From Pantoea sp. SOD02 (GTDB taxonomy: Bacteria; Pseudomonadota; Gammaproteobacteria; Enterobacterales; Enterobacteriaceae): DNA of 64,000 bases. Each line of letters starts with the position of its first letter. Position 1 is the stretch's first letter. A model generated the notes under the pieces. It had not been told where the DNA came from and did no database searches. It worked only from the letters and a program-made list of their open reading frames with translations. The position numbers and the translations under genes were made by a program. The stretch covers positions 1,488,001 through 1,552,000 of the forward strand of contig NZ_CP102604.1 of NCBI RefSeq assembly GCF_024707505.1, read 5' to 3'. Shown here one piece after another: positions 40,687 to 46,570 of the stretch.

Positions 40687-41238
40687 TTATACCGCTTGTG
40701 CGTAGGGTTGGTGGCGACGATGCAGCGCGTGCCAGAAGGTATCCAGCGCTTCGTCAATGCGTTGCGACAGCAGCGGATCGAGCAGCGGCTGGCGATCGTA
40801 ATCAGTAATCTGGCCGTCAGTGGCGAACACGCCGTGCAACACTTCCTGCGCCTTCAGCGCATTCAGCACCGGCTTCAGCGCGTAATCCACCGCCAGCAGA
40901 TGTGACGCGCTGCCGCCGCTTGCCAGTGGCAGCACCACTTTGTGCTCCAGCGCGCGCTCTGGCAGCAGATCGAGCAGAGTTTTCAGTGCGCCAGAAAACG
41001 AAGCTTTATAAATAGGCGTGGCGACAATCACGCCATCTGCCAGCGCCAAATCAGCTTTCAACGCGGCTAAGGCAGGTGAATCGAAGCGTGCATAGAGCAA
41101 ATCTTCAGGCTGGAAGTTGTGAATATTCCACGGAATCACTTCAACGCCGCGTGCTTCCAGCGCGTGCTGGCAAAGGCTCAGCAGCGCAGTAGAGCGTGAA
41201 GGGTAGCGAGGGCTGCCCGCCAGCGTAATAACCCGCAT
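40687..41238 (-). CDS. ssuE: NAD(P)H-dependent FMN reductase SsuE
   Basis: Supplies FMNH2 to SsuD. 183 residues, flavodoxin-like fold with the FMN phosphate-binding loop LAGSPRYPSRST near the N-terminus and TPIYKASFSGALK, LASGGSASHLLAVDYAL. First gene of the operon. ATG at 41238 with AAGGAG 5 bases upstream; a GTG two codons earlier abuts that site and is less likely. In E. coli the operon is induced by sulfur limitation through the LysR-type regulators CysB and Cbl. Confidence 0.95.
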   Translation of the reverse strand: MRVITLAGSPRYPSRSTALLSLCQHALEARGVEVIPWNIHNFQPEDLLYARFDSPALAALKADLALADGVIVATPIYKASFSGALKTLLDLLPERALEHKVVLPLASGGSASHLLAVDYALKPVLNALKAQEVLHGVFATDGQITDYDRQPLLDPLLSQRIDEALDTFWHALHRRHQPYAQAV

Positions 41239-41249
41239 GGTCACTCCTT

Positions 41250-41264: not shown

Positions 41265-41993
41265 TGATTATCTGATATTCAGAACTGATGTATTCAATAC
41301 TGTCAGAGCAGGCAGCGAGGCTTAAATGATTTATCTGGTAATCCTAAGTCGCAAAATGGGATAGCCAGCGACATATAAAGGAAGGGTAAAAAAGCTGCCG
41401 ATGGGTACTTAGGCATAATCTGAAAAGCGGTGCAGGAAGTAGGCGGTTATATAAATCCTGAGGCCCATTGGACTGAGTTTAATGATTAAGGGTCGTAATG
41501 CATGGGTAAAACAGAGGAGTAACCGGAGAAATATATTTACACAGACCACGTGGATACCGGATAAATGCGGTGGTTACTATTGAAAGATATGGGGAAAAAC
41601 CATCAATTCACCACTATTCATTTTTTTATGAATCGGATTAAACTTAGCAAGCTTTGATTGTTTCCTAATATACCGTGGTTTTTATTTCGCGAAATTTATG
41701 TCGAAACGCGAATAAAGGTTAATAAAATACGTGCCATTCATCTCGCTGGTTACAACTAATGCAAATTTGCGCAGATCAACTTCACACTTCATGCAGTCGC
41801 GCTAAACAATGAATCTCTTAAGTTACGTGTTAATGCTATTAGTGGTTGGAATTACAATCCCCGGCCTGTTTATAATTGGTTGAGCTAATTTCCGCTAGAA
41901 CACGATAACGATATTTCACTTATTTATTTACGCCCGCGTTTTGTGGCGTGAACTGCCGTTGCGGCAAGCTAATTTATTCTTAGGGAGATAAAT
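41265..41993. other. long AT-rich intergenic leader between ssuE and the polysaccharide module
   Basis: About 730 bp with no ORF above 25 codons that I would defend. It is visibly more AT-rich than its neighbours and holds several short dyads, for example TTTCGCGAAA near 41687 and ATTCAT/ATGAAT at 41616-41633. It must contain the ssuE promoter on one side and the promoter of the gene at 41994 on the other. Length and composition are typical of silenced or multiply regulated surface-polysaccharide loci. I looked for a JUMPstart/ops element and a full RcsAB box and did not find convincing ones. Confidence 0.6.
41809..41883 (+). CDS. possible 24-residue hydrophobic peptide
   Basis: ATG at 41809 to TGA at 41881-41883. 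It encodes a peptide beginning MNLLSYVLMLLVVG and ending PGLFIIG, almost entirely Leu/Val/Ile/Met/Gly, enough for one membrane helix. No Shine-Dalgarno sequence precedes it (GCGCTAAACA), and a 24-codon frame can arise by chance. Listed because small single-helix proteins are often missed and this one lies alone in the leader of a polysaccharide module. Confidence 0.2.
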   Translation: MNLLSYVLMLLVVGITIPGLFIIG

Positions 41994-42821
41994 ATGGGTA
42001 GTTCTTCATTTGCTCAGGATTTAACTGAGCAGCAGGTCGTGCCTGCCACCTTCAATCGCATCTCACCCTCACCTAAACCAGAAGAAGAGCTGGTGTGTTA
42101 TTGGCTGCAACCCGATGCCGCAGGCGCGCATCTTACTTCTTCATTGCTACCAACCTTCCCACACAGCACGCCGGCAGAAGATGACTTCCTGCTGTTCAGC
42201 GCGGAGCGCAGCGCCTTGCCGGCCAGCCTGCTGCAGGATGTGGCGAAGCTCAGTGACCAGCGTCCAGAGCTGAACTGCTTTATTATCTCGCTGGCGAAGC
42301 GCGACTTGGCGAACGGCTTACACTCGTCTCTGCAGCTGTTTCAGCAACTGCATGAGCAACGCTGGTGGCAGCAGGGCGGCTTTGCGGTGATCTTGCGTGC
42401 TGGCCTGGCCCGCGTGGGTGCGCCGCTGACACGTATTCAGGATGTGATGCTGGCCGGATTACTGCATACGCAAACGGCGTGGGTGCTCGACTACGCCAGC
42501 GAAGCGTCGCTGACCACCAAAGCCGATGCCGTGCCGCGCTTAACTTATCAGCAATTTATTACTGATTATGAAAAACTCACGCGTTTGTCACACTATATTC
42601 CGGAGCGAAACCGCTATCGGGAAAGTTATTTACGCAGCGGCTTATTACAATTAGTCCAGTACGAGTTAAGTGGCGCGGCGAAATTCTCAGATAATACCCG
42701 CCATGCATTAACCTACTTTGCGGAAAACTTCCCGGCCAAGGGTGCAATGGAAAAACTTATGTTGAAACAACCTGACATCTATTTCTCCATGATGAAAATG
42801 AGAAAAAGGCTGGGCGCTTAG
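41994..42821 (+). CDS. unrecognised cytosolic protein, first gene of polysaccharide module
   Basis: 275 residues, no signal peptide or membrane segment, so probably cytosolic. ATG with AGGGAG 7 bases upstream, so it is a well-formed gene. The middle part (about 94-170, from CFIISLAKRD to TAWVLDYASE) reads like an alpha/beta domain. By eye it resembles the degenerate receiver-like domain of the cellulose regulator BcsE (hydrophobic strand, helix ending LHEQRW, strand VILRAG, then R-x2-D and LLxxG). That resemblance is weak and may be wrong. The C-terminus is basic (MMKMRKRLGA). It stands 97 bp upstream of a flippase and is probably co-transcribed with it, so a role in control or assembly of a polysaccharide is a reasonable guess, not a finding. 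Confidence 0.85.
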   Translation: MGSSSFAQDLTEQQVVPATFNRISPSPKPEEELVCYWLQPDAAGAHLTSSLLPTFPHSTPAEDDFLLFSAERSALPASLLQDVAKLSDQRPELNCFIISLAKRDLANGLHSSLQLFQQLHEQRWWQQGGFAVILRAGLARVGAPLTRIQDVMLAGLLHTQTAWVLDYASEASLTTKADAVPRLTYQQFITDYEKLTRLSHYIPERNRYRESYLRSGLLQLVQYELSGAAKFSDNTRHALTYFAENFPAKGAMEKLMLKQPDIYFSMMKMRKRLGA

Positions 42822-42856
42822 CACCAAGGTTAATTTTAAGAATAACTCCGGTGTGC

Positions 42857-42879
42857 GCGTGAATACTTTTATGTCACGC
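42857..42879 (+). other. hairpin inside the polysaccharide module
   Basis: GCGTGA (42857-42862) pairs with TCACGC (42874-42879) around 11 bases, between the first gene and the flippase, with no T tract after it. It may be an mRNA processing or pausing element. Confidence 0.3.
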
Positions 42880-42918
42880 TTAAGGCCACTGAGATAATCC
42901 CCAGATGCCAAAACACCT

Positions 42919-44436
42919 ATGTCTATAAAACGTAACGCGATTGCCAACTATGTTGGTCAAATCTATCTGACGCTGTCAGGTATTTTGGTTGTACCACTTT
43001 ATATTCAACACTTAGGAATGGAAGCCTACGGTTTAGTGGGCTTCTTTTCGATCTTATTAACCTGGCTGCAATTACTCGATGCCGGCGTTTCCACCACCTT
43101 AATGCGGGAAGCGGCGCGCTATCGTGCCAATCAGTCGGAATTCGTCTGGTTCCCGGCGCTGTTTGCCACGCTGACCAAATTCTTCCTGTTCTCTACCATT
43201 GTGCTGGTGGTGTTGGGCTGGCTGGCAACGCCGTGGATTGCCACGCACTGGCTGGATGCGCGTCATCTTCCGGCGGGTGATGTGGTGATTGCCGTGGCGA
43301 TTATGGTGATTACCGCCGCGATTCGCTGGCGCACCAGTCCGTATCGCAGCGTGATTGTCGGCTTCGAACATCAAGTCTGGCTGAACGGCGTCAACCTGGT
43401 CATCACCACCTTACGCACCTTCGGCGCAGTGCTGGTGATTCAGTTCTTCTCCAATCCGGTATTGGCGTTCTTTATCTGGCAGCTGCTGGTGTCGATTGCC
43501 GAAGCGGCCTGCTGTATCTACAAGTCCTGCCAGCTGATTCCAAAGGCGGCACGCAAAGAGAAGCGCGGCGATCTGAAAGAGGTACTGAAACCCTTTATTC
43601 GTTTTGCCCTCAGCGCGGCATTCTCCAGTGCGGTGTGGACCTTTATTTCGCAAATCGACCGATTGGTACTTTCTAAGACGCTGCCGCTAAGCGAATACGG
43701 TTCGTTTACCGTGGTGGCGACGGCTGCGACCGGCATTCTGTTGCTCAGTAGTCCGATAATGCAGGCGATTGTGCCACGTATGACCGGCATGAAAACTCGT
43801 AAAGAGGGCGATGCGGAGTCGCTGAAACTCTATCGCTACACCACGCAGGCGGTGGCGATCTTTATGGCACCGCTCAGCATCACTATCGCCTGTTACGCCG
43901 GCCCGCTGCTGTGGGCGTGGACGCAGAAGAGTCAGATTGTTGATGAGATGTCGTTTGTTCTCAGCCTGTACGCGTTGGGCAGCGGCATTCAGGCCATCTG
44001 TGGCTTGCTCTATCACCTGCAATACATCAACGGCAACCTCAAGCTGCACATGAAAGGCTTCACCTGCTTTGCCGTGCTGCTGGTGCCGCTCAACATCTGG
44101 TGCGCTATTCACTACGGCGCGTTGGGCACCGGTTGGTTGTGGCTGGGGCAAAACATCTTCTATTTGGTGGGTTGGGCGTGGCTGGTGCATCGCCGTTTCG
44201 CGCCTGGCATTCATTTCACCTGGTTAACCCGCGACGTAATGCTGATTTGGGCGGTATCCGCCGCCATCGCCTGGTTAAGCACTTTCTTGCCGATCGAGTG
44301 GAATCAAAATCGTTGGATCAACCTGCTGTGGCTCGGCTTGATTGGCGCGTTCAATCTTGGTGTCTGCTGCCTGCTGCACAGCGTGGTGTTGAAGCGTCTC
44401 AAAATTCCGTTGTTTAACGTTGAGGAAAGAGGATGA
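42919..44436 (+). CDS. Wzx-type polysaccharide flippase (MOP superfamily)
   Basis: 505 residues with roughly 12-14 membrane helices. The N-terminus NAIANYVGQIYLTLSGILVVPLYIQHLGMEAYGLVGFF is typical of polysaccharide-translocating MOP proteins, with the conserved helix 2 region LLDAGVSTTLMREAARYRA and later FISQIDRLVLSKTLPLSEYGSFTV. Such proteins flip undecaprenyl-diphosphate-linked oligosaccharides across the inner membrane. Specificity cannot be read. No clear Shine-Dalgarno precedes ATG 42919, suggesting coupling or weak initiation. The stop overlaps the glycosyltransferase start by 4 bases. No polymerase or initiating transferase is nearby, so it probably serves a repeat unit made by another locus. 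Confidence 0.88.
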   Translation: MSIKRNAIANYVGQIYLTLSGILVVPLYIQHLGMEAYGLVGFFSILLTWLQLLDAGVSTTLMREAARYRANQSEFVWFPALFATLTKFFLFSTIVLVVLGWLATPWIATHWLDARHLPAGDVVIAVAIMVITAAIRWRTSPYRSVIVGFEHQVWLNGVNLVITTLRTFGAVLVIQFFSNPVLAFFIWQLLVSIAEAACCIYKSCQLIPKAARKEKRGDLKEVLKPFIRFALSAAFSSAVWTFISQIDRLVLSKTLPLSEYGSFTVVATAATGILLLSSPIMQAIVPRMTGMKTRKEGDAESLKLYRYTTQAVAIFMAPLSITIACYAGPLLWAWTQKSQIVDEMSFVLSLYALGSGIQAICGLLYHLQYINGNLKLHMKGFTCFAVLLVPLNIWCAIHYGALGTGWLWLGQNIFYLVGWAWLVHRRFAPGIHFTWLTRDVMLIWAVSAAIAWLSTFLPIEWNQNRWINLLWLGLIGAFNLGVCCLLHSVVLKRLKIPLFNVEERG

Positions 44437-45440
44437 GCATGATGTCATCTCACCGTATCCCTACGGTTTCGGTCATCATTCCGAACTGGAATTGCGCGCC
44501 CTGGCTGCCAGAAGCGATGAGTTCTTTGTTGCGGCAGTCATCGCCGCCGGAACAGATCATTGTTATCGACGATGGCTCCAGCGATAGCAGCGTGGCCTGG
44601 CTAACGGCATTTGCGGCCCAGCATCCGCAGGTGATGCTGCTGAGCGGTGAGCGCGGTGGCGTCAGTGCCGCGCGTATGAAAGGGCTCTCAGTAGCAACCG
44701 GCGATTTTGTTTACTTCATGGATGCGGATGATTTTGTCTCCACTGACTTGTTCGCCGACTTCCGTCGCGTGCAGGCGCGCCATGAGGATATTGACCTGTT
44801 CTGCTTTGGCGCAAAAATGTTCTTCGATCTGCCCGCCGCGCAGCGTCACTATCAAACCATTCATCAGCGTCACGTCAGTGGATTATTGCCCGGCGGCAGC
44901 ACCAGCTTGCGTACGCTGATGCAGCATCAGTCGGCGCACCGCGTGGTGTGGAGCAGCATCATTTCGCGTCGCTTAATTGATCAACTGGCGCTGCAGTTTC
45001 TGCCGATCCAGAACCATGAAGATGCACCGTACATGTTTGCGCTCTATCTGCAGGCGCGTAACATCTATTGCACTAGCCAAAGCTATTATTACAAGCGCTT
45101 TATGCTGACTTCGCTGTCGCAAAGCACGCGCGATTTTTCCTACGTGAAAAACTACTTTATTGCGCGTGAAAGCAGCGAACAGTTCCTGCGTGACCAGCAA
45201 TTGCCGGTGGATGCAGCCTTGCTGGATAGCTATTACCAAACGGTGATGCACAGCTGCCTGGCGCAGATCCGCAAAAATCACATGGTGATTCCGACAGATT
45301 GGCAGCCGCAGGTGAATCAGCTGGTGCGCAATGTGTTGCAGCACAGCGCGCGTCTGAAGCTGATGTGGTACTGCCCGACGATTTACAGTGGCCTGCAGGC
45401 GTGTCGTGAACAGCTTGGCCGCTATTCTGCACGACGCTGA
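44433..45440 (+). CDS. family 2 glycosyltransferase
   Basis: 335 residues, GT-A fold. VSVIIPNWNCAPWLPEAMSSLLRQS opens the nucleotide-sugar domain; IDDGSSD lies at 45-51; the metal-binding DADD is at 97-100 in YFMDADDFVS; the helix GGVSAARMKGL precedes it. The C-terminal half (about 180-335) is less typical and probably forms the acceptor site. No membrane helices, so it would act on the cytosolic face, adding one sugar to a lipid-linked acceptor. Overlaps the flippase by ATGA, with GAGGA 6 bases upstream. Donor and acceptor are unknown. Confidence 0.88.
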   Translation: MSMMSSHRIPTVSVIIPNWNCAPWLPEAMSSLLRQSSPPEQIIVIDDGSSDSSVAWLTAFAAQHPQVMLLSGERGGVSAARMKGLSVATGDFVYFMDADDFVSTDLFADFRRVQARHEDIDLFCFGAKMFFDLPAAQRHYQTIHQRHVSGLLPGGSTSLRTLMQHQSAHRVVWSSIISRRLIDQLALQFLPIQNHEDAPYMFALYLQARNIYCTSQSYYYKRFMLTSLSQSTRDFSYVKNYFIARESSEQFLRDQQLPVDAALLDSYYQTVMHSCLAQIRKNHMVIPTDWQPQVNQLVRNVLQHSARLKLMWYCPTIYSGLQACREQLGRYSARR

Positions 45441-45559: not shown

Positions 45560-46570
45560 ATGTTATATCCTATCGTCCGGCCGGCGCTGTTTAAGCTTGA
45601 TCCTGAGCGTGCGCACGAACTCACCTTTCAACAACTGCGTTTTATCAGCGGCACCCCGCTGGAAGGGCTGATTCGCCAGTCGCTGCCATCCCGTCCGGTC
45701 ACCTGCATGGGATTAACCTTCCCGAACGCGCTCGGCTTAGCGGCCGGCCTCGACAAAAATGCCGAGTGCATTGATGCCTTCGGCGCGATGGGCTTTGGTT
45801 TTGTCGAAGTGGGAACGGTAACGCCGCTGGCGCAACCGGGAAATGATAAACCGCGTATGTTCCGCTTAGTGCCTGCGGAAGGGATTATTAACCGCATGGG
45901 GTTTAATAATCACGGCGTTGATCATCTCATTGCCAACGTCAAAAAGTCGCGCTTTAAAGGCATTCTCGGCATCAATATTGGCAAAAATAAAGATACGCCG
46001 GTGGAAAATGGCAAAGACGATTATCTGATCTGCATGGAAAAGGTATATGCCCACGCCGGTTATATTGCCATCAATATTTCCTCACCGAACACGCCAGGAT
46101 TACGTACGCTGCAATATGGTGAAGCGCTGGACGATCTTCTCTCTGCCATCAAATTAAAACAGCAAGAGCTGCAAGAACGGCACCTTAAATATGTGCCGGT
46201 GGCGGTAAAGATCGCGCCGGATCTTACCGAAGAAGAATTGATCCAGGTTGCTGACAGTTTGCTGCGCCACAATATTGATGGTGTGATTGCCACCAATACC
46301 ACGCTCGATCGTTCGCTGGTGACCGGCCTTAAATATGCCGAAGAAGCGGGTGGATTAAGTGGTCGTCCGGTGCAATCACGCAGCACCGAAGTGATTCGCC
46401 GCCTGGCGCAAGAGCTGCAGGGCCGCTTACCTATTATTGGCGTCGGTGGTATTGATTCGCTGGTTTCTGCGCGCGAGAAAATTGCCGCAGGTGCAACATT
46501 AGTGCAGATATACTCCGGATTTATTTATAAAGGCCCAGGCTTAATTAAAGATATCGTGACCCACCTCTAA
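45560..46570 (+). CDS. pyrD: dihydroorotate dehydrogenase (quinone) PyrD
   Basis: Class 2 membrane-associated flavoenzyme, oxidising dihydroorotate to orotate with quinone as acceptor in pyrimidine synthesis. 336 residues. The N-terminal helical extension ([24 protein letters not shown]) is the class 2 quinone-tunnel element. [31 protein letters not shown] is the core signature; catalytic Ser175 lies in [15 protein letters not shown] after GAGGAGAG. Confidence 0.98.

Follow-up and report, generated by a model that had tools for sequence, protein, structure and literature searches.

A stretch of 64,000 nucleotides (hereafter, the window) at positions 1488001-1552000 of contig C1 (NZ_CP102604.1) of Pantoea sp. 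SOD02 (genome G000, 5.15 Mb) raises the question of what three genes set between ssuE and pyrD are for. These are an open reading frame here called ORF1 (positions 41994..42821, + strand, 275 residues), a gene for a Wzx-type flippase labeled wzx' here (42919..44436, +, 505 residues) and a gene for a GT2 glycosyltransferase (44433..45440, +, 335 residues). They had been noticed in a preliminary description as a tandem set in which the flippase stop and the GT2 start share ATGA; both the arrangement and its coordinates were confirmed, and the ORF list contains only these three genes between ssuE and pyrD. In E. coli K-12 the same interval is occupied by elfADCG-ycbUVF, also as first described. 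Our analyses suggest that the module probably represents an accessory stewartan locus, the place of wceO-wzx2 in Pantoea stewartii, in one of its three or more exchangeable allelic forms, and that it caps and flips a stewartan-type repeat unit, ORF1 being retained in a non-catalytic capacity; the roles are predicted, and we consider this explanation as a whole likely, if short of firm.

One genome of our set (G250) was taken as P. stewartii on the grounds that a 306-residue stretch of its WceF matches the chain of structure 6tgf with 100% identity (at most 96% in other genomes of the genus). Its ssuE-pyrD interval (L060) contained a gene for a WceO-type GT2 followed by a gene for a 433-residue flippase, Wzx2, and this content fits the published cluster III, which consists of wceO and wzx according to PMC4689408. 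Altogether, 61 Pantoea genomes were searched and the interval was read in 58, among which four states were found: WceO-Wzx2 (state A, 29 genomes; Wzx2 has 433-436 residues in 28 of them and a frame of 275 residues in G217), WceO-wzx'-GT2 (state B, 12 genomes), ORF1-wzx'-GT2 (state C, 14 genomes including that of the window, with ORF1 broken in G229) and wzx'-GT2 alone (state D, 2 genomes). Both WceO and Wzx2 were broken in G241, and neither WceO (E <= 1e-25) nor wzx' (E <= 1e-60) was detected in G226, G238 and G240. WceO and ORF1 never occurred together in one genome of this survey, an interval comparison which the preliminary description had proposed and which detected the flippase in 28 of the 61 genomes.

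The kinship with secondary stewartan loci of P. stewartii that had been suspected therefore holds for the place, where wceO-wzx2 is found in L060, but the window holds another allele. Both loci combine a flippase with a side-branch transferase far from the main cluster, and both begin with a predicted WceO homolog. Unlike cluster III, the window encodes a flippase with no recognizable similarity to Wzx2, an extra GT2 after the flippase and a WceO homolog without catalytic motifs. The state B allele is closer: it has the same place, and its wzx' and GT2 are 84-86% and 59-66% identical to those of the window (L014-L020, L022); the difference is that its WceO carries NDGS, DxDD and HEDH in all 12 genomes. 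Among the 21 related loci taken from named records (L002-L022), 20 (all but L021) have the flippase-GT2 pair in this interval, with orthologs of ssuE (40687..41244, − strand, in the window) on its left and of pyrD (45560..46570, +) on its right, both boundaries being ORF calls. Given these 20 loci and the occurrence of the flippase in 28 Pantoea genomes, the association of the pair with this place is not due to chance.

What, then, is ORF1? The preliminary description called it an unrecognized cytosolic protein, and indeed the window protein had no Pfam or NCBIfam match up to E 1 and no sequence match in PDB. PF00535 was not matched by any of the 11 ORF1 members scanned, two of which had one weak match each to an unrelated Pfam model (E 0.1 and 0.2). 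However, when the 11-protein ORF1 alignment was compared with an 8-protein alignment of WceO-type transferases by hhalign, a probability of 94.7% was obtained (E 6e-8, 207 collinear columns), and the negative control, the ORF1 profile against the GT2 family of the module itself, gave 1.5%. The broken WceO of G241 was a further match of the ORF1 profile in the search across the genus (E 5e-6). By these profile comparisons, ORF1 is a shortened homolog of the WceO-type transferase that lacks its catalytic motifs, i.e., a putative pseudo-glycosyltransferase. In the alignment, ORF1 has lost or replaced the segments with NDGS and GGAGxAR and lacks HEDH, and the window protein has AERS where WceO has DPDD. 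NDGS, DxDD and HEDH were present in WceO of all 29 state A and all 12 state B genomes, whereas none of the 14 ORF1 proteins had any of the motifs. We did not rely on GGAGxAR, since 13 of the 29 WceO proteins in state A and 1 of the 12 in state B do not fit the strict pattern either. Thus, ORF1 looks like a preserved, catalytically dead remnant of a sugar-transfer enzyme.

Structural modeling offered additional, supportive evidence only. The AlphaFold model of ORF1 had a mean predicted local distance difference test (pLDDT) score of 74, and the first 10 rows of a VIA-align search with this model were GT-A transferases RmlT, TarP and TarS (Z 7.8-8.9), consistent with a GT-A fold. The same list contained 14-3-3 and other helical proteins (Z 5-6) over the C-terminal helices of ORF1, a likeness that we took as a common arrangement. 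An amphipathic C-terminal helix serving as a membrane anchor was also considered and was unsupported, the strongest moments being found near residues 101-122 and 188-205.

Catalytic death could simply mean that ORF1 is a decaying, functionless pseudogene that remains open because too little time has passed. Its ratio of nonsynonymous to synonymous substitution rates (dN/dS), 0.13-0.27 in 7 pairs, is about twice that of intact WceO (0.06-0.12, 8 pairs), and residues 1-62 are almost unconstrained in some pairs; these values, the lost motifs, the broken copy in G229 and the absence of the gene from the two P. eucrina genomes all fit such decay. Against it, ORF1 is open in 13 of 14 carriers, with identity to the window copy falling to 39-40%, the bootstrap 95% intervals of dN/dS were <=0.40 in all 7 pairs with no bootstrap value >= 1, and invariant residues are most frequent toward the C terminus (31 of the 92 positions in the last third, 184-275, compared with 21 of 121 at 63-183 and 4 of 62 at 1-62). 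ORF1 is still under purifying selection, and we regard the pseudogene explanation as unlikely. The other two genes are more constrained (dN/dS 0.01-0.06 for wzx' and 0.02-0.12 for GT2).

The state of WceO differs with its company. It was motif-intact in 29 of 29 state A genomes, whereas beside wzx'-GT2 it was intact in 12, dead in 14 and gone in 2 of 28 genomes. Dead or lost WceO in 16 of 28 genomes with the GT2 pair versus 0 of 29 with wceO-wzx2 gives a Fisher p of 5e-7 (G241 left out; 5e-6 with G241 counted; G226, G238 and G240 left out), a value that is descriptive only, as the test ignores relatedness and allele spread.

The two partners of ORF1 are readily recognized. The flippase matched PF01943 with 46.5 bits (cut-off 28.2), and a hydropathy scan gave 18 partly overlapping stretches which were merged by eye to approximately 12; its predicted function is translocation of a polyprenyl-linked oligosaccharide. 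The GT2 matched PF00535 with 95.4 bits (cut-off 23.3) and has DDGS, GVSAAR, DADD and HEDA motifs; the catalytic motifs are kept in all 31 carriers of wzx', Erwinia included. A family-wide search of 198 genomes at a strict cut-off (E 1e-60) detected the flippase in no genome but that of the window. At E 1e-30, it was found in 10 of 392 genomes drawn from the family: three Pantoea, two from one other genus group (72-73% identity) and five distant (25-35%). As to the recommended comparison with the P. stewartii loci, the GT2 is not WceO (identity of approximately 30%), and BLASTP of wzx' gave no useful alignment with Wzx2 (best E 0.003 over 42 residues) and only short or insignificant ones with Wzx1, the flippase of the main cluster. 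Although Wzx2 also matches PF01943, the flippases of the two alleles are not recognizable orthologs at the level of sequence.

Comparison of trees suggested how these alleles came to be distributed. In a flank tree of ssuE, pyrD and ycbX from 40 loci and E. coli, the states were scattered; state C needs 7 changes, 5 of which are forced by well-supported branches. The approximately unbiased (AU) test on this tree rejected a single clade of C and D carriers, and also one of all wzx' carriers. In the wzx'-GT2 tree, the B and the C/D alleles fell on opposite sides of one branch (support 100/99). The flank and cassette trees conflict, and therefore alleles move between lineages; the flank tree rests on three locus-adjacent genes which may have been exchanged themselves. 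A direct case involved L008 (state C) and L057 (state B), whose ssuE, pyrD and ycbX are 98.9%, 99.7% and 98.7% identical and whose flanking DNA is ∼95% identical, whereas wzx' and GT2 are only 83.7% and 58.3% identical. Compared with the window, L008 has lower identity in ssuE (93.0%), pyrD (94.6%) and ycbX (85.4%), and higher identity in wzx' (91.7%) and GT2 (81.8%). Recombination in the flanks explains this sequence pattern best. The third-position G+C of ORF1, flippase and GT2 (0.60-0.69) is close to that of ssuE, pyrD, ycbX and rlmL (0.54-0.68), so the host-like base composition reported initially for the flippase and the transferase agrees with the neighbors; the accompanying term "long resident" is appropriate for the place, but the alleles have been exchanged between lineages, as the trees and the flank comparison indicate.

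This joint movement also bears on the possibility that the pair is no more than a duplicate of Wzx1 and WceO, an unspecific spare for the same sugar and linkage. Wzx1 is present and intact in the window's own genome, and some Wzx proteins accept several units, as stated in PMC6436433. Yet wzx' lacks a useful alignment with either of the other flippases, the GT2 is as distant from WceO as noted above, and the joint exchange of flippase and transferase suggests that their specificities match; we consider a mere duplicate improbable, much as we do a pseudogene.

A partner for the module was found elsewhere in the genome. Both matches to the initiating-transferase family in the own genome are WbaP-type. 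The first, WceG1, opens a cluster with the order WceG1, Wza, Wzb, Wzc, EpsG-type polymerase, GDSL hydrolase, acyltransferase, two GT2 genes, a further transferase gene, WceF, WceJ, WceK, Wzx1, GalF and GalE, and the second stands alone (L035), as wceG2 does in P. stewartii. The gene names follow the P. stewartii order given in PMC4689408. NCBIfam matches supported WceG1, WceG2, WceJ (WcaK-type pyruvyl transferase), WceK (WcaL-type) and Wzx1, and Pfam matches the polymerase, hydrolase and acyltransferase; WceF was a full-length match to the P. stewartii WceF structure 6tgf (1361 bits), and the remaining genes were named by eye. Thus, a stewartan-type main cluster and a wceG2-like gene are both present, which largely supports the early proposal of a satellite of a main exopolysaccharide cluster. 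We infer that the module acts on the repeat unit of this cluster.

Could it instead serve another surface glycan, such as an O antigen? MOP flippases accompanied by GT2 enzymes are common in O-antigen clusters, and the region beyond galE (L038 3235-10551) by eye resembles a set of rml sugar genes followed by two more genes and a pair for an ABC transporter, perhaps an O-antigen cluster adjacent to that for the exopolysaccharide. Such a cluster, if ABC-transporter dependent, would need no Wzx; moreover, the place is that of P. stewartii wceO-wzx2, a WceO homolog (ORF1 counted) precedes the pair in 26 of 28 Pantoea carriers, and in P. eucrina wzx' is kept while Wzx1 is gone (among flippases, Wzx1 and wzx' were followed, and Wzx2 within the interval). 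Service to a different glycan is therefore, in our judgment, a little less probable still than either the pseudogene or the duplicate. The locus also differs from a Gtr serotype-conversion cluster (gtrA, gtrB and a specific gtr), since no Pfam match to a GtrA-type small flippase or a polyprenyl-phosphate glucose synthase was found among the three ssuE-pyrD genes.

P. eucrina (G204 and G213) provided a further case relevant to the stewartan-type explanation. Wzx1 and WceJ are both full-length and without stops in the same 55 of 61 Pantoea genomes. Neither is intact in G238 (Wzx1 a remnant) or G240, and both are broken in G241 and G226. In P. eucrina, Wzx1 is absent and WceJ is a remnant. Its main cluster keeps WceG1, Wzc, WceF, WceK and GalF, no polymerase, hydrolase or acyltransferase genes were found within the cluster region (L063), and the ssuE-pyrD interval holds wzx' and GT2 only, the pair being kept in both genomes. 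According to PMC6436433, Wang (2012) proposed that paired Wzx proteins are specific for the terminal residue of the side branch, a proposal that, as the same paper adds, was not directly confirmed; in P. stewartii as in E. amylovora, each of the two flippases would handle its own unit, the difference lying in a terminal glucose or pyruvate. The joint loss of Wzx1 and WceJ in P. eucrina fits this pairing as the source outlines it, and, as the main case is one lineage, the sequences illustrate rather than prove it.

A candidate regulatory site was detected approximately 570 nt upstream of ORF1: TAGGCATAATCTGA (41410..41423, + strand) has 1 mismatch to TRVGAAWAWTSYGA, which we take to be the RcsAB consensus. 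Shuffling of this region gave 0.03 expected matches at <=1 mismatch and 0.6 at <=2. Of 23 upstream regions from states A, B and C, 20 had a box with <=2 mismatches at almost this distance, the candidate in cluster III being similar; in L012 and L013 the box is nearer the gene, and in L054 it has 3 mismatches. Both state D intervals are too short for a box at that distance, and in L011 a 2-mismatch match lies nearer wzx'. In P. stewartii, wceO is activated by RcsA and required for exopolysaccharide, as reported in PMC4689408 and PMC11438254, and the window box may be a weak candidate site for activation by RcsA/RcsB.

Taken as a mechanism, the capping-and-flipping explanation would run as follows. 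The main cluster would build a lipid-linked repeat unit on the sugar placed by WceG1 or WceG2; stewartan is described in PMC7949094 as a heptasaccharide with glucose ends. The GT2 of the window locus would add its own terminal residue to the side branch, wzx' would prefer units capped in this way and move them across the inner membrane for polymerization, and Wza/Wzc would export the polymer. With the GT2-flippase pair present, the transfer reaction of WceO would be dispensable, and in the window allele WceO may have become ORF1, retained without catalysis as a partner protein, with the GT2 or the flippase as its probable counterpart. Capping, flipping and export are drawn from knowledge of the families, while place, partner cluster, exchange, and homology and selection of ORF1 were computed. 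For ORF1 we favor a role as non-catalytic partner, and a model for how it could act is offered by PssG and PssI of Rhizobium leguminosarum (PMC9961541), two exopolysaccharide transferases which are homologous and associate both with one another and with the inner membrane; unlike ORF1, both contribute to synthesis with complementary functions and neither is a dead partner.

Several observations weigh against this explanation. The case is built on sequence, and the transfer reaction of the GT2 and the substrate preference of the flippase are predictions only. Raw pairwise identity between ORF1 and WceO is only 19-29%. The VIA-align support at Z 8-9 lies at a level where chance arrangements also occur, a Foldseek search of the ORF1 model against PDB returned 0 matches at E <= 0.001 with unrelated top rows, and the control model of WceO (mean pLDDT 44) was too poor for use. 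The lack of ORF1 in P. eucrina and its disruption in G229 mean that ORF1 is not essential to the pair; since P. eucrina does without it, a modulating role is more plausible than an essential one. WceO is intact next to wzx'-GT2 in twelve genomes, and therefore the pair alone does not abolish WceO. Finally, the RcsAB-like box is weak and distant (∼570 nt), and the upstream regions of the own wceG1 and wceG2 contained only 2-mismatch matches (2 and 1, versus ∼0.5 and ∼0.4 expected).

Outside Pantoea, close relatives of wzx' were found in Erwinia psidii (L021) and in G283 and G353, two drawn genomes of one other genus group. This group is probably Erwinia, because the neighbors of the locus in G353 (aldehyde dehydrogenase and hemB-like genes, by eye) resemble those in E. 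psidii. All three sets lie at other chromosomal places than the window module; their wzx' and GT2 are 70-73% and 49-50% identical to those of the window, and a WceO homolog stands in front in two of the three. In G283, an intact WceO precedes wzx'-GT2. G353 has a full-length WceO in which VHRESD, DPAG and YQDA replace NDGSTD, DPDD and HEDH, and which Pfam still recognizes as a GT2 (E 1.4e-8); no WceO homolog was found ahead of wzx' in E. psidii. The dead WceO of G353 is 38.5% identical to the intact G283 protein versus ∼22% to ORF1, and keeps the N-terminal part that ORF1 lost. Its closeness to the G283 protein suggests that the catalytic losses in G353 and ORF1 were likely separate. Full independence was not established, as the AU test did not reject a single clade of dead WceO forms (p 0.35) and the branches are very long.

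These two dead forms raise a broader idea, which we offer tentatively and hold rather doubtful, though less so than any of the three alternatives weighed above: a dead glycosyltransferase may be a recurrent working part. Where wzx'-GT2 takes over capping, WceO could lose its catalytic function and turn into a structural component of the GT2 or the flippase, or into a factor that sets their specificity; Pantoea has the shortened ORF1 and a likely Erwinia genome the full-length, motif-dead form. Such sets would spread as exchangeable alleles of slime type.

The kind of locus is known; what is surprising is that a dead transferase is retained, that another genus has a second dead form and that the alleles are so cleanly exchanged. 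No description of wzx'-GT2 alleles or of a dead WceO was found among the papers listed in the literature searched, which was mostly non-subscription. The findings bear on how a flippase reads the end of its sugar chain: here a flippase and a terminal transferase seem to have been swapped jointly at a single fixed site, once between flanks that are almost identical, with a dead copy of the old transferase kept under selection. The genomes examined thus offer a comparison set of different capping-flipping pairs with much the same main cluster, to which P. eucrina adds a case where the main-cluster flippase and pyruvyl transferase are both gone. They also suggest that such plant-associated bacteria can alter their exopolysaccharide type through the exchange of a module distant from the main cluster, an event that annotation confined to the cluster would miss.

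Additional observations concern the main cluster. GDSL hydrolase and acyltransferase genes lie inside that of the own genome (L037 2654-4591). The acyltransferase was detected in 24 of 61 Pantoea genomes (E <= 1e-20; two of the copies are broken and one is a match of only 32%), and this patchiness suggests strain-dependent acylation of the polymer. It was rejected as a correlate of allele type, being patchy across states A, B and C. An EpsG-type polymerase gene was not found after wzc in 5 of 11 main clusters outside the own genome (L063, L064, L067, L070 and L071, from G204, G244, G228, G213 and G248), and only a remnant was present in L075; these counts apply to the main clusters and not to whole genomes.

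Records L003, L008 and L022 are titled Enterobacter ludwigii, Enterobacter cancerogenus and Erwinia sp., respectively, but their loci are of Pantoea type, and the titles may be wrong; the match place and score of the genome of L022 equal those of G242, a genome of the window's genus. In G241, where WceO and Wzx2 are broken (L053), and in G226, several main-cluster genes including those for WceJ and Wzx1 are broken as well (L073 and L075, respectively), and the polysaccharide seems to be decaying in these two lineages.

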